A stretch of DNA of 7,473 nucleotides from Betaproteobacteria bacterium (GTDB lineage Bacteria > Pseudomonadota > Gammaproteobacteria > Burkholderiales > Burkholderiaceae_A): assembly GCA_028139685.1 (NCBI GenBank), contig JAOINQ010000032.1, positions 1 through 7,473 on the forward strand. Reading direction: 5' to 3'. The first letter of the stretch is position 1, and each line of letters begins with the position of its first letter. Below are positions 3,064 to 7,473 of this stretch, one piece after another. The notes under the pieces are model-generated. The model saw only the letters and a program-made list of their open reading frames with translations. It did not search any database and had not been told where the DNA came from. The position numbers were made by a program, and so were the translations under genes.

Positions 3064-4440
3064 TCACTCCAGAAGCTTAAACAAAACTGAAGCCAAGAAT
3101 CCTGCAAGAGTGGCTAAACCGACTAGATTATTATCTGCCAAATGTGCAGCTTCAGGTAACATTGCTGCGCAAATCATGGTAAGCATCGCACCTGCTGCTA
3201 GTCCTTCCACAATTACAAGTGTTGAGTGAGAAACACCTTCTCCAATAAATGCCCCAATAGCTGCCCCAACAGCAGTCAGCACTACCAATGAACCCCATAA
3301 GGAAAGTATTTTCCATATCTCCATGCCTTCTTTTTTCATTTGCGCAGAACTAGATAACGCTTCAGGAAAATTCGACAAAAATAACCCAGCAATAAACGTG
3401 TATGGGAGCACATTTAGAAAACTAGGGTCAGTGCCTGCCGCGACACTTGCTGAAATTAACGTTAAAACAGCGATTCCTAAAACAAAACTCTCTGGGATTG
3501 CATCAAGCATAATACCTAACCAAATTGCGAATGCAGCATTACCATGAGAGTTAAACTGTTTCTGCAAATCTGCCCTTGTTGGCAAATCACCGGTATCACC
3601 ATGGTGAACCGCTTCCATTGCAAGCTCAGCCCACTTAGCTCTTGCATCGGCATCTTTCTCAACGTGATCGATATTTTCCTCGAATCTCTCCTTAGCCATA
3701 GCTCTTAACTCTTCGTCAAACTCAGGTATTTTTTCGCGAAGCATATGGAAGTCCTCGGCTGAGAGCACCAAAAGCTCTGTCTCATCGTTAGCTGTACAAT
3801 CAGCTGTTCGATTCACCTTGTTTAAGAGCGACATCTCACCAACAATCTCACCTTTCGCAAGTACCAAATCCGGATGATCAGGACTTTCAACTTTCAGAGA
3901 TCCACTGCGAATAACGTACATTGATTCAGGAGTATCTCCTCGTGTGTAAACACAATCGCCTTTATGAAGAAAACGAGGCTTTAAATGACCAATAATGATA
4001 CTCATATCCTCAGGATCCAATTTATAAAAAAGCGGAACATCGGCAACATCTTTCATTGCTTTTTTAAAAAATTTCTCCTTATCAACTGCAGACTTTGAAA
4101 TTATGTAGGCAGTTTTTCTTAGGTAGCCTCCTTTTTGATTTATGAGTTGGTCGAGTAAGACAAAAAGTAAACCCCCAACAACAGCCCCCACGATTAATAG
4201 AAAAAAGTGCTGCTCTGCTTCTAATCTTTGTTTCGCATCTTTGGCAGAACTTAACTCATAGATTGTTGGAGCTACCAACTCTAAAGCTAATGCAGAAAGA
4301 AGTGCGCCAGCTCCAAATGCCGCCATCAGACCAATGACAGTGGATGATACTCTAAAATAAATACCGATTGCAGAACCAAATAACAATGAGATCGAGGCAA
4401 TAACCCCAACCATAGCTGCCCAAAAAACATAACCTTCCAT
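3064..4440 (-). CDS. ZIP-like metal transporter with an inserted cyclic-nucleotide-binding domain
   Basis: 458 residues. Hydrophobic helices lie at about 5-29, 33-58 and 79-99, then 302-335, 342-366, 378-400, 407-428 and 436-456, giving the 3+5 helix layout of ZIP carriers. The long TM3-TM4 loop, cytoplasmic in ZIP proteins, holds a complete CRP/cNMP-binding fold at about 137-240. Its phosphate-binding cassette keeps G201-E202 and R211-T-A213. Helix 4 has D313-A-I-P316-E317 and helix 5 has S356-N-F-P359-E360; these align with the HNxPE-type metal motifs of ZIP helices 4 and 5, but both histidines are replaced. Helix 7 (EGLAAGAMLTMICAAMLPEA, 412-431) is clearly ZIP/GufA-like. I infer an inner-membrane divalent-metal carrier, or a sensor derived from one, controlled by cAMP, cGMP or a related ligand. 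GGGGAG 7 bases upstream supports the ATG. Substrate and ligand are unproven. Confidence 0.85.
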   Translation of the reverse strand: MEGYVFWAAMVGVIASISLLFGSAIGIYFRVSSTVIGLMAAFGAGALLSALALELVAPTIYELSSAKDAKQRLEAEQHFFLLIVGAVVGGLLFVLLDQLINQKGGYLRKTAYIISKSAVDKEKFFKKAMKDVADVPLFYKLDPEDMSIIIGHLKPRFLHKGDCVYTRGDTPESMYVIRSGSLKVESPDHPDLVLAKGEIVGEMSLLNKVNRTADCTANDETELLVLSAEDFHMLREKIPEFDEELRAMAKERFEENIDHVEKDADARAKWAELAMEAVHHGDTGDLPTRADLQKQFNSHGNAAFAIWLGIMLDAIPESFVLGIAVLTLISASVAAGTDPSFLNVLPYTFIAGLFLSNFPEALSSSAQMKKEGMEIWKILSLWGSLVVLTAVGAAIGAFIGEGVSHSTLVIVEGLAAGAMLTMICAAMLPEAAHLADNNLVGLATLAGFLASVLFKLLE

Positions 4441-4507
4441 ATGCTACTCCCCCAAACCAAACTTCAAAATGCTTATACTACAAATAAATAAAAAAAACTT
4501 CTTTAAC

Positions 4508-4705
4508 ATGACCAATTTTTATAACATTCATAGACACCGTTTTTACATTGACTATCCGCAAGAGAAACTTGACGGTGAGTTGTACAAATACAAATGCGCT
4601 TTTTGTGGTATCGATACGGTCACTATCGATGGGATGCTTGAAAACCACTCGCCCACTTGTGAGTACCGGCTACAAAAAGAAAACGATGCTAATTCTGACA
4701 CATAG
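4508..4705 (+). CDS. Small C2HC putative zinc-binding protein, 65 residues
   Basis: I do not recognise a named family. From the ATG at 4508 the product is 65 residues, soluble, with no signal peptide. It has a tight metal-knuckle pattern C30-x2-C33-x13-H47-x3-C51 after a YKYK lead-in, which suggests binding of one zinc ion. An in-frame ATG at 4469 would add 13 residues (MLILQINKKNFFN). I prefer 4508 because a TATACT hexamer at 4474-4479, a possible -10 box, falls inside that extension; neither start has a good ribosome site. The gene is divergent from the ZIP-cNMP gene, sharing a short upstream region, and converges on nhaD with 12 bases between stops. The overlapping minus-strand frame lacks any such pattern and runs into nhaD. 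Possible roles are a small regulator or metal-handling protein; this is inference. Confidence 0.65.
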   Translation: MTNFYNIHRHRFYIDYPQEKLDGELYKYKCAFCGIDTVTIDGMLENHSPTCEYRLQKENDANSDT

Positions 4706-4717: not shown

Positions 4718-6013
4718 TTAATGGCCAAATAGCGGAGACAAAGCAACGTATGTTAACGCACCAGCTATGTAACCCACCAAAGCTAAAACGCTGATTTTCT
4801 TAACGTACCAAAAGAAATTAATCTTTTGCATACCCATCGCCGCCAATCCGGCTGCAGAGCCAATAATCAAAATCGAACCGCCCGTTCCGGCACAGAAAGC
4901 TAAAAACTGCCAAAGGTAACTGTCTTTCGGATGCAAGTCCATGGGGAACATTTTAATTGAAGCTGCCACCATGGGAACATTGTCGACCAGTGAGCTCATG
5001 AGCCCAATTAACATAATCACTAGAGTTGTATTTCCGAGGGTTTCATCTAGCCACTTCGCAAGCTCAGGTAAAATTTTACTGTGCTCTAATGTAGCCACGG
5101 CTAGCAAAATACCTATAAAGAAAATAATGGAACTCATGTCAATCTTGGATAAAGCGCGAGCAAGTGAAAACTGTGCTTTTTCAGATTCCTTCTTGCCTTT
5201 GTGCAATAAATCCGTAATTAACCACAGGAACCCCAAGCCAAACATGACCCCCAAAAATGGTGGCAGATGCGTTATGGTTTTGAAAATTGGAACGCCAATT
5301 AGTGCTCCAATACCACAATAAAATATAACATTTCTTTCTTTTTGCGTTGTCTCTGCGTGTCTGGCAACACCCACATCCGTTTTCGGAGGTTCCACTCCCT
5401 GACCTTTCAAGGAATTGGTAACAAAATATAGTGGTATAGCTGCCGCAACAATAGATGGTATGAACACCTCATATATGACATTTAAAGCAGATATCTTATC
5501 TGCTACCCAAAGCATGGTCGTGGTCACATCACCGATCGGAGACCACGCTCCGCCAGCATTTGCACAAATCACAATCAAACCGGCAAATAATAAACGGTCT
5601 TCCTTCTTGCCCAAAAGTTTGGATATCAATGAGCACATAACGATGGTTGTTGCGAGATTGTCTAATACTGCGCTAAGAAAGAAAGTCGCCACACCTATCT
5701 GAAAAAGCAAAGTTGATGACTTTGTTGTCTTAATCCTTTTGGTAATAATATCAAATCCATTATGAATATCTATCAACTCTACAATAGTCATGGCGCCCAT
5801 CAAAAAGAAAACAATTTGGCCCACTTCAATAAGCGTATGACCTAATTCATCGTGAACCATGGTGTGAATATCACCACCGCTAAATAGAACGTATATCGTC
5901 CAAAGTAAACCTGCACCTATCAACGCAGTTGCTGATTTATTTACATGAAGAGGGTGCTCTAAGGCTATTGCGGCGTAAGATAACAAAAATATGGCAGAAA
6001 GGGCAATAATCAC
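4718..6013 (-). CDS. nhaD: NhaD-type Na+/H+ antiporter
   Basis: About 431 residues with some 11-13 hydrophobic helices: an inner-membrane antiporter that expels Na+ (and Li+) in exchange for protons, aiding pH and salt tolerance. Family hallmarks are ALEHPL near residue 20, SAVLDNLATTIVM (about 114-126), ANAGGAWSPIGDVTTTMLW (about 151-169) and, in the second half, SLVDNVPMVAA; the paired LDN and VDN acidic sites mark the two inverted halves of the ion-transporter (IT) fold. A TTG at 6019 is in frame, but AGGAGG (6022-6027) ends only 2 bases before it. The GTG at 6013 is 8 bases from the same AGGAGG, the normal spacing, so I start there. The leader carries a TATAAT box. The gene converges on the C2HC gene and lies downstream of the TerB-like gene with its own apparent promoter. 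Confidence 0.93.
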   Translation of the reverse strand: MIIALSAIFLLSYAAIALEHPLHVNKSATALIGAGLLWTIYVLFSGGDIHTMVHDELGHTLIEVGQIVFFLMGAMTIVELIDIHNGFDIITKRIKTTKSSTLLFQIGVATFFLSAVLDNLATTIVMCSLISKLLGKKEDRLLFAGLIVICANAGGAWSPIGDVTTTMLWVADKISALNVIYEVFIPSIVAAAIPLYFVTNSLKGQGVEPPKTDVGVARHAETTQKERNVIFYCGIGALIGVPIFKTITHLPPFLGVMFGLGFLWLITDLLHKGKKESEKAQFSLARALSKIDMSSIIFFIGILLAVATLEHSKILPELAKWLDETLGNTTLVIMLIGLMSSLVDNVPMVAASIKMFPMDLHPKDSYLWQFLAFCAGTGGSILIIGSAAGLAAMGMQKINFFWYVKKISVLALVGYIAGALTYVALSPLFGH

Positions 6014-6020
6014 GTGCAAT

Positions 6021-6555: not shown

Positions 6556-6600
6556 TATACGAAAAATCATTATATTTTTTTACTTGTGAAAATTTTTGCA

Positions 6601-6867
6601 ATGCGTCAAAGAAAGCTAACTGAAGATACCGTGCACCGAGTAATTGAGATGGCATGGGAAGACCGCACTCCAATAGATGCCATAAAGAAACAATTTTCAC
6701 TAAGCGAAAAACAAATTATTGTGCTCATGAGAACACATCTTCGCTCGGCTAGTTTTAGAAACTGGAGAAAAAGAGTTGCGGGTAGAAAGACCAAGCACAT
6801 GGCGTTACGGAGCAAAGCCATTTCTCGCAGTCATTGCTCTCTACAATATAAACAGAAAAGTAGATAA
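6601..6867 (+). CDS. TIGR03643-type small basic protein
   Basis: 88 residues from the ATG at 6601. The first 70 residues (MRQRKLTEDTVHRVIEMAWE..., then WRKRVAGRKTKH) match my memory of TIGR03643, an uncharacterised bacterial family of about 70 residues. The pattern is an N-terminal helix, the AWEDRTP turn, a helix-turn-helix-like segment (IDAIKKQFSLSEKQIIVLMR, 23-42) and a strongly basic end with W53-R-K-R and GRKTKH. A DNA- or RNA-binding role is an inference. The tail after about 70 residues (SKAISRSHCSLQYKQKSR) is longer than usual for the family. A GTG at 6586 would add 5 residues; ATG is preferred because it gives the familiar MRxRKLT beginning and the putative -10 at 6571-6576 leaves almost no leader for the GTG. 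Family members are often near photolyase genes, but none is visible here. It converges on the adhesin-E-like gene with 2 bases between stops. Confidence 0.82.
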   Translation: MRQRKLTEDTVHRVIEMAWEDRTPIDAIKKQFSLSEKQIIVLMRTHLRSASFRNWRKRVAGRKTKHMALRSKAISRSHCSLQYKQKSR

Positions 6868-6869
6868 AA

Positions 6870-7238
6870 CTAACCTGAGCAGACTATTTTTTGAAGTATT
6901 GAGTCTGGAGTTCTAGGCACGATATACATCCAACCTTTTGAAACACCATTTGAAATGATCATTTTTCCTTTGGCATTTATTTTTGAAAACGATTTGAAAG
7001 CCAAAATTTTGTAACGCCCTCTGTTACAGTCAAACCTTTGGCGAACTAAGACGGATTTTTCACCGCTGTTCGTTTGAAAAACATAGTTCGAGAGAACAAA
7101 AACATTTACTTCCTTTAGATCTGGGCTTTTTTTAATCGATGCTGGGTTGTAAAAAAAATCCGCACCTTTAGTTCGGAAATATTTTACCCAAGAAATCTCT
7201 GCATAACTTAACTTAGGAAAAAATGTCACAAGAGACAT
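6870..7238 (-). CDS. Secreted surface-adhesin-E-like protein; start uncertain
   Basis: From the ATG at 7238 the product is 122 residues. After a hydrophobic start ending in LSYA-EI, a plausible signal-peptidase I site, it has the pattern of the surface-adhesin E-like domain: a short W-x3-F opening, FFYNPASI, a mid-chain FDCNRGRYK, GWMYIVPRTPDS and a terminal KIVC, the two cysteines probably forming a disulfide. Such proteins act in the periplasm or on the outer surface; their function outside Haemophilus is largely unknown. The ATG gives a signal peptide with no basic n-region. The same frame remains open upstream and reads GRRTFLFSSWFFVC, which would complete a normal signal peptide, but it has no ATG, GTG or TTG there and overlaps a terminator. 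An ATT at 7304 or a sequence error are alternatives. No ribosome site precedes the ATG. Confidence 0.68.
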   Translation of the reverse strand: MSLVTFFPKLSYAEISWVKYFRTKGADFFYNPASIKKSPDLKEVNVFVLSNYVFQTNSGEKSVLVRQRFDCNRGRYKILAFKSFSKINAKGKMIISNGVSKGWMYIVPRTPDSILQKIVCSG

Positions 7239-7256
7239 ACATACAAAAAACCATGA

Positions 7257-7300
7257 CGAAAATAAAAAGGTCCGTCTACCCCAAAAAGGAGTAGACGGAC
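7257..7300 (-). terminator. Strong Rho-independent terminator
   Basis: On the minus strand GTCCGTCTAC (7300-7291 complement) pairs with GTAGACGGAC (7279-7270 complement) for 10 bases; one U-G and two C-G pairs extend the stem to 13 around a five-T loop, and CTTTTTATTTT follows. The gene it ends is the His/Pro-rich one stopping at 7318. The plus strand has no T-run after the hairpin, so it works in one direction. Confidence 0.9.
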
Positions 7301-7317
7301 TAATGAAGCTAAACTTA

Positions 7318-7473
7318 TTACGCCATCGTAGATGGATCATCCGGAGGAGGCATGTCTGGGCCCGGATCCATTGGAGGAGCTCCATCTGGGGGTCCAGCTG
7401 GACCATCTGGGGGCGGTCCCTGAGGAGCCTCATGATGATGCTCATGCTCAGTTTCAGACATTGCATGATCAAA
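7318..7473 (-). CDS. His/Pro-rich protein, C-terminal 51 residues (cut by right edge)
   Basis: The minus-strand frame is open from the window edge to a TAA at 7318-7320, followed 18 bases on by a strong terminator, which supports its being a real gene end. The visible 51 residues begin FDHA-MSETEHEHHHEAP and continue in proline, glycine and aspartate runs of the type PPPDG, GPPDG, PPMDPGPD and PPPDD, ending STMA. An ATG at 7461 could be the start of a 47-residue protein, but the 12 bases before it carry no ribosome site, so I favour the tail of a longer protein. Low complexity, with GC-rich codons unlike the neighbours, suggests a disordered, perhaps metal-binding (HEHHH), tail. The longer overlapping frame seen on this strand is a shadow upstream of the adhesin-E-like gene. 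Function is unknown. Confidence 0.7.
   Translation of the reverse strand, partial: FDHAMSETEHEHHHEAPQGPPPDGPAGPPDGAPPMDPGPDMPPPDDPSTMA

Follow-up and report, generated by a model that had tools for sequence, protein, structure and literature searches.

A predicted ZIP-fold carrier with a proposed regulatory insert: a cyclic-nucleotide-binding domain between its third and fourth transmembrane helices

Control of metal uptake in bacteria is generally ascribed to metal-sensing transcription factors and to the metal itself. In BbZIP, the ZIP carrier of Bordetella bronchiseptica, transmembrane helices (TM) 2, 3, 7 and 8 form a scaffold and TM1, 4, 5 and 6 the moving domain (PMC9278863), while the TM3-TM4 loop lies over the site of metal exit and has a part in the negative regulation of uptake by intracellular zinc (PMC10256678). 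The sperm Na+/H+ exchanger SLC9C1 has been described as a voltage-gated carrier whose voltage range is shifted by cAMP (PMC6052114). Articles are cited here by PubMed Central (PMC) number. Here we describe a 458-amino-acid protein of a marine bacterium, encoded in a 7,473-nucleotide stretch of contig JAOINQ010000032.1 (the window, i.e. the whole stretch analysed). It is a predicted ZIP-fold carrier whose insert, a cyclic-nucleotide-binding domain (cNBD), is new to such carriers and may be regulatory.

The ZIP fold, the cNBD fold, the position of the insert, an intact phosphate-binding cassette and purifying selection were all obtained by computation. A preliminary description had proposed an eight-helix ZIP-type membrane part with a complete cNBD between TM3 and TM4, and comparison of the predicted structure bears this out: the fold matches BbZIP across both membrane parts and is complete, residues 135-255 match both Pfam PF00027 and the fold of MloK1, and the cassette holds the canonical G, E, R, T and A (including G201, E202 and R211). 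The ZIP match came from a second aligner run on Foldseek candidates; in the Foldseek search itself, all 50 listed rows were cNBD-containing chains, with no cNBD-less ZIP chain among the matches listed. A sequence search with a TM1-TM3 profile (alignment A4) returned no ZIP chain, only three weak, chance-like matches. The window protein scores 33.1 bits against Pfam Zip (PF02535), whose gathering cut-off is 35.1, and the family is assigned to the relatives P0002 and P0003 in the database's precomputed list.

A protein search found 2259 proteins above threshold, and PF00027 is present in 120/120 of the best 120; query coverage is 96% or more in 118 of these (75% in P0035, 91% in P0120). The family alignment comprised 78 rows, namely the window protein and 77 of the 120; the 43 omitted by choice were mostly near copies, plus the partial P0035 and P0120. 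In these rows E54 (4279-4281) is invariant (78/78), D97, close to the end of TM3, is present in 77/78, and H299, in the linker between the cNBD and TM4, in 74/78.

Because TM3 belongs to the scaffold and TM4 to the moving domain in BbZIP, the cNBD sits on the tether between the fixed and moving halves, and the simplest reading is that a cyclic nucleotide controls the elevator allosterically. The cNBD would replace the short cytoplasmic TM3-TM4 loop of a ZIP-fold elevator carrier, and a cyclic mononucleotide, most likely cAMP, would bind the intact cassette; binding would shift the C-helix, which is predicted at residues 239-277 and heads towards TM4, and this shift would alter the position or rate of the elevator. 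We give this full mechanism, of which we infer the ligand, the coupling, the sign of the effect and the cargo, about an even chance of being correct. That cAMP or a similar nucleotide sets flux directly, without transcription, the carrier being a second-messenger-gated elevator with its cNBD on the scaffold-transport tether, we propose tentatively and at somewhat less than even chances. Such gated transport had been claimed in the preliminary description; the fold, the place of the insert and the intact cassette stand, and the gating step itself is plausible only.

Several findings weigh against control by a cyclic nucleotide. Both linkers have low predicted local distance difference test (pLDDT) values, which makes the modelled placement of the cNBD relative to the membrane part tentative, and on the far side of the insert residues 256-300 hold five Lys/Arg and nine Asp/Glu, with three Lys/Arg in the TM2-TM3 loop. 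BbZIP has four M1 ligands, two of which are replaced (H177 by D313, Q207 by S356), and relatives lacking the cNBD exist, among them P0124, which is 59% identical to the window protein in the membrane part. The cNBD also evolves faster than the membrane parts, the mean share of the commonest residue being 0.487 vs 0.579 and 0.682. At position 211 the 78 rows have R (42), H (25), Y (7), C (3) or S (1), the window's clade is nested in a branch where Arg is rare, and the window protein has Pro, not Gly, at position 171. One of the 13 Arg-bearing loci sampled from genomes (L067) lacks the Glu. Lastly, the human Mg2+ transport mediator CNNM4 has a cNBD-like domain that does not bind cyclic nucleotides (PMC6940986).

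The CNNM precedent would make the cNBD a ligand-free structural or dimerisation module, joining protomers or limiting elevator travel. The cNMP-like domain of CNNM4 forms dimers without binding cAMP or cGMP, Mg2+ transport by CNNM2 and CNNM3 is reported to be inhibited when the domain is removed (PMC6940986), and in the present family the domain persists although Arg is missing in 36/78 rows. However, the CNNM4 domain has neither Arg nor Glu (PMC6940986), whereas both are present in the window protein, outside that non-binding pattern; cyclic-nucleotide binding is favoured because the window protein has both cassette residues that CNNM4 lacks. G201 is invariant (78/78), E202 is found in 75/78 rows, including 33/36 of those without Arg, and the window's own clade has Arg at 211 in 9/9 rows. 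We consider a ligand-free module unlikely, and prefer a nucleotide-binding domain.

On the tree, one large clade has R at 211 in 33/36 rows, and the other, which includes the window protein, has H in 24, R in 9, Y in 6 and C in 3. Because the window's clade lies among non-Arg rows, its Arg was either kept, several neighbours having lost it, or regained. Among the non-Arg rows, the three with C fall into a single supported group and those with H or Y are clustered on the tree, as might be expected if the cNBD, at least in the H/Y/C branch, sensed another ligand such as a nucleoside, another nucleotide or a heme-like or redox signal; there is precedent in CooA, in which a non-canonical cassette goes with heme binding (PMC2246266), and in trypanosome PKA, in which nucleosides are cNBD ligands (PMC10959531). 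Against this, the cassette of the window protein is canonical (G, E, R, T, A), and we regard a different ligand as quite improbable.

A link between Gly169 and Arg209 has been described in cNBDs (PMC2246266), and the family pattern at positions 171 and 211 is in line with it, all 32 rows with Gly at 171 having Arg at 211. As raw counts across the 78 related rows, Gly/Arg occurs in 32, Gly/non-Arg in 0, non-Gly/Arg in 10 and non-Gly/non-Arg in 36; a Fisher value for this table disregards kinship and was not relied on. E. coli CRP binds cAMP and probably likewise has no Gly at the position matching 171. The genome samples yielded 14 fused loci, of which 7 have Gly and 13 have Arg, and Arg without Gly thus extends past the window's clade. 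In L060 the aligned cNBD has His, and the Glu is missing from both L060 and L067. Coupling of Gly171 and Arg211 as traits was considered and set aside, the starred branches of the tree providing only 2 independent pairs, too few for a test.

Transport-site residues were matched to BbZIP by profile alignment. The M1 ligands H177, E181, Q207 and E211 correspond to D313, E317, S356 and E360; N178, D208 and E240, which we take to be the M2 ligands, correspond to A314, N357 and A393; and the exit residues H275 and E276 correspond to A425 and A426. By offset, S106 corresponds to E54 and D305 to K455, and E54 and K455 are both invariant in the 78 rows. These substitutions, together with the Zip score below the cut-off, would accommodate a membrane part that is no metal importer and instead transports something else or serves as a ZIP-fold membrane sensor. 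On the other side, D313, P316 and P359 are invariant (78/78), E317 and E360, the equivalents of E181 and E211, are each present in 77/78 rows, the ZIP fold is complete, and the 12 rows of alignment A5 that lack a cNBD share D313, E317, S356, N357 and E360; we judge this alternative very unlikely. Since cNBD-less rows share these site residues, the change of the transport site is independent of the insert. The acidic core of the site appears to be retained and the softer ligands gone, so a cargo harder than zinc is possible. We take the protein to be probably an elevator-type ZIP-fold carrier of divalent metal, although zinc, or any metal, as its cargo is something we infer, two M1 ligands being different.

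The cNBD lies between GGYLRKTAY at the end of TM3 and HxNAAxAIWLG at the start of TM4 in the alignment. A search with residues 290-458 alone found 2415 proteins at E 1e-10 or better, and many of the best 120 are 304-355 amino acids long, lack PF00027 and are at most 64% identical. In 171 sequences (the window protein, 77 from the full-length search, 90 from the residue 290-458 search and three from plasmids), the stretch matching residues 111-297 measures 6-41 residues in 89 and 126-192 in 82. A tree of the membrane part (83 rows after thinning at 85% identity, 78 used after removal of five outgroup or long rows) requires three changes of cNBD presence, forced by the starred branches. Grouping the 21 cNBD-less rows together was rejected by the approximately unbiased (AU) test (p-AU 4e-30), run after the quick tree had been seen, although membership of the group followed from the trait. 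The cNBD has thus been gained or lost three or more times on a single membrane core, the direction of change not being readable from such counts. In the quick tree, the cNBD-less P0171 is sister, with support 97, to P0027, in whose cNBD His replaces Arg, and the two are 74% identical in the membrane part; with a decayed cassette beside an absent domain, this branch looks as if ligand binding had been lost first and the domain later. A separate observation concerns L060:433-2487 (+), a ZIP-type carrier with two tandem cNBDs in the TM3-TM4 loop (two stretches by Pfam), neither cassette having Arg.

A scan of genome contigs gave 36 loci: L001-L014 match the query along its length at 52-97% identity, L015 and L016 are partial, and L017-L036 match only in or around the cNBD at 25-36% identity. 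In the phylum of a Flavobacteriales genome, at least 7/247 genomes have a fused locus, one of which, L056, matches only from residue 105 onwards. For the phylum of a Chloroflexi genome the figure is at least 7/251, with a broken frame in one locus and another truncated by its contig end. Relatives without the cassette occur in 1 more genome of the first sample and 2 more of the second. In the phylum of the nearest relative the starting genome alone matched (at least 1/398), and the nearest relative and its 40 kin gave matches in 5/41. These counts are lower bounds because at most 4 to 6 candidates were scored per genome, and on the strength of the fused-locus counts across phylum samples the ZIP-cNBD family is widespread but sparse. 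None of the 119 plasmid records with a match covers 80% of the query in one place; of four examined, three hold a ZIP protein without a cNBD and the fourth (L040) a cNBD behind a Na+/H+-antiporter-like protein, identified from sequence only. In L069 and L073 (G701 contig 2) a fused carrier gene runs across two frames with a stop in its second part; the copy has either decayed or been misassembled.

The genomes of 11/12 relatives contain class III cyclase genes, so the messenger likely exists in such cells, which is all that this shows. In L012 the carrier gene is preceded, at a distance of 13 bases, by a gene with an Ion_trans domain, and 4-6 kb downstream come the genes of a 152-amino-acid cNBD protein and of a class III cyclase. 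Sequence clustering shows an identical gene order in L011, where the last gene is cut; L011 and L012 count as one case because they are close kin. No Ion_trans, cNBD or cyclase neighbours were found among the genes tested in L007-L009 and L014. An NhaD-like Na+/H+ antiporter gene adjoins the carrier gene in the window and in L001-L006. An operon with this upstream gene was considered and rejected, and no functional link is drawn, because a small opposite-strand gene intervenes and L007-L012 have other neighbours. That small gene, divergent from the carrier gene, encodes a possible small zinc-finger protein with a C-x2-C ... H-x3-C pattern; it occupies the same place in 6/6 close loci (L001-L006), its motif is found in none of L007-L016, and no Pfam family scored above cut-off. 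In L001 (2569-4191, +), and in the same cluster in L002-L005, an HlyD-type adaptor with an N-terminal cNBD lies 3-5 kb from the carrier gene; its cassette has Glu and Arg (Pfam was run on L001 only), and an ABC exporter gene stands beside it in L001, L002, L004 and L005. The genes at the window edge are given with the other features in Table 1.

Table 1. Features of the window, with the parts of the carrier protein and neighbouring genes
Feature	Coordinates	Strand	Basis
ZIP-fold carrier with inserted cNBD, 458 aa	3064..4440	-	ORF, Pfam, structure comparison
TM1-TM3, residues 2-102	4135..4437	-	predicted structure, BbZIP match
Linker TM3 to cNBD, residues 103-134, GGYLRK motif	4039..4134	-	pLDDT <50 at 105-120
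cNBD, residues 135-255, beta-roll and start of C-helix	3676..4038	-	Pfam PF00027, MloK1 match
Phosphate-binding cassette, residues 197-213, with G201, E202, R211	3802..3852	-	alignment
Linker cNBD to TM4, residues 256-301	3538..3675	-	pLDDT <50 at 273-297
TM4-TM8, residues 302-457	3070..3537	-	predicted structure, BbZIP match and alignment
TM4 motif D313-A-I-P-E317-S	3487..3504	-	aligned with BbZIP H177-N-L-P-E181-G
TM5 motif S356-N-F-P-E360-A	3358..3375	-	aligned with BbZIP Q207-D-V-P-E211-G
Small C-x2-C protein, probable start 4508	4469..4705	+	
NhaD-like Na+/H+ antiporter	4718..6019	-	NCBIfam NhaD_1 above cut-off, TIGR00775 below
DUF2805 protein (window edge)	6586..6867	+	
Surface-adhesin E domain protein (window edge)	6870..7472	-	

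If the proposed control is real, a second-messenger receptor built into the carrier would tie flux directly and rapidly to cyclic-nucleotide signalling. Because its natural versions differ in the insert (intact cassette, changed cassette, no cNBD, two cNBDs), the family offers ready material for studying the way in which a binding domain acquires control of an elevator. Several members are named CRP-like cAMP-binding protein by the Joint Genome Institute (JGI), a name that may hide them from transporter surveys; some cNBD-less relatives are named ZupT or ZIP family by JGI. In the open-access PMC literature no paper on a ZIP-cNBD chain was found, a term search of the ZIP survey PMC5751234 gave no match, and the available part of Table 1 of PMC2246266 has no ZIP partner among 30 cNBD families.

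Of the described systems, BbZIP (PDB 5TSA, 7Z6M, 8GHT) shares the fold across both membrane parts, the xPE motif in TM4 and TM5 and the TM3-TM4 loop as a regulatory place; unlike the window protein, with its cNBD, it has a short His-rich loop there. SLC9C1 is likewise a secondary carrier with a cNBD, but belongs to another transporter family and has a voltage sensor (PMC6052114). The magnesium transport mediators CNNM2-4 also combine metal transport with a domain of cNBD fold, but have a DUF21 membrane domain and a CBS pair, and the CNNM4 domain is without the Arg, the Glu and nucleotide binding (PMC6940986). The bacterial cyclic-nucleotide-gated channels MloK1 and SthK have cNBDs among the closest by sequence and fold. 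Both are tetrameric channels with a C-terminal cNBD, and in SLC9C1 the cNBD is also C-terminal, outside the carrier part. The cNBD-less ZIP relatives (P0124 and others, mostly 304-355 amino acids) have the same membrane part, at up to 64% identity over residues 290-458, and differ in having 6-41 residues where the fused proteins have 126-192.
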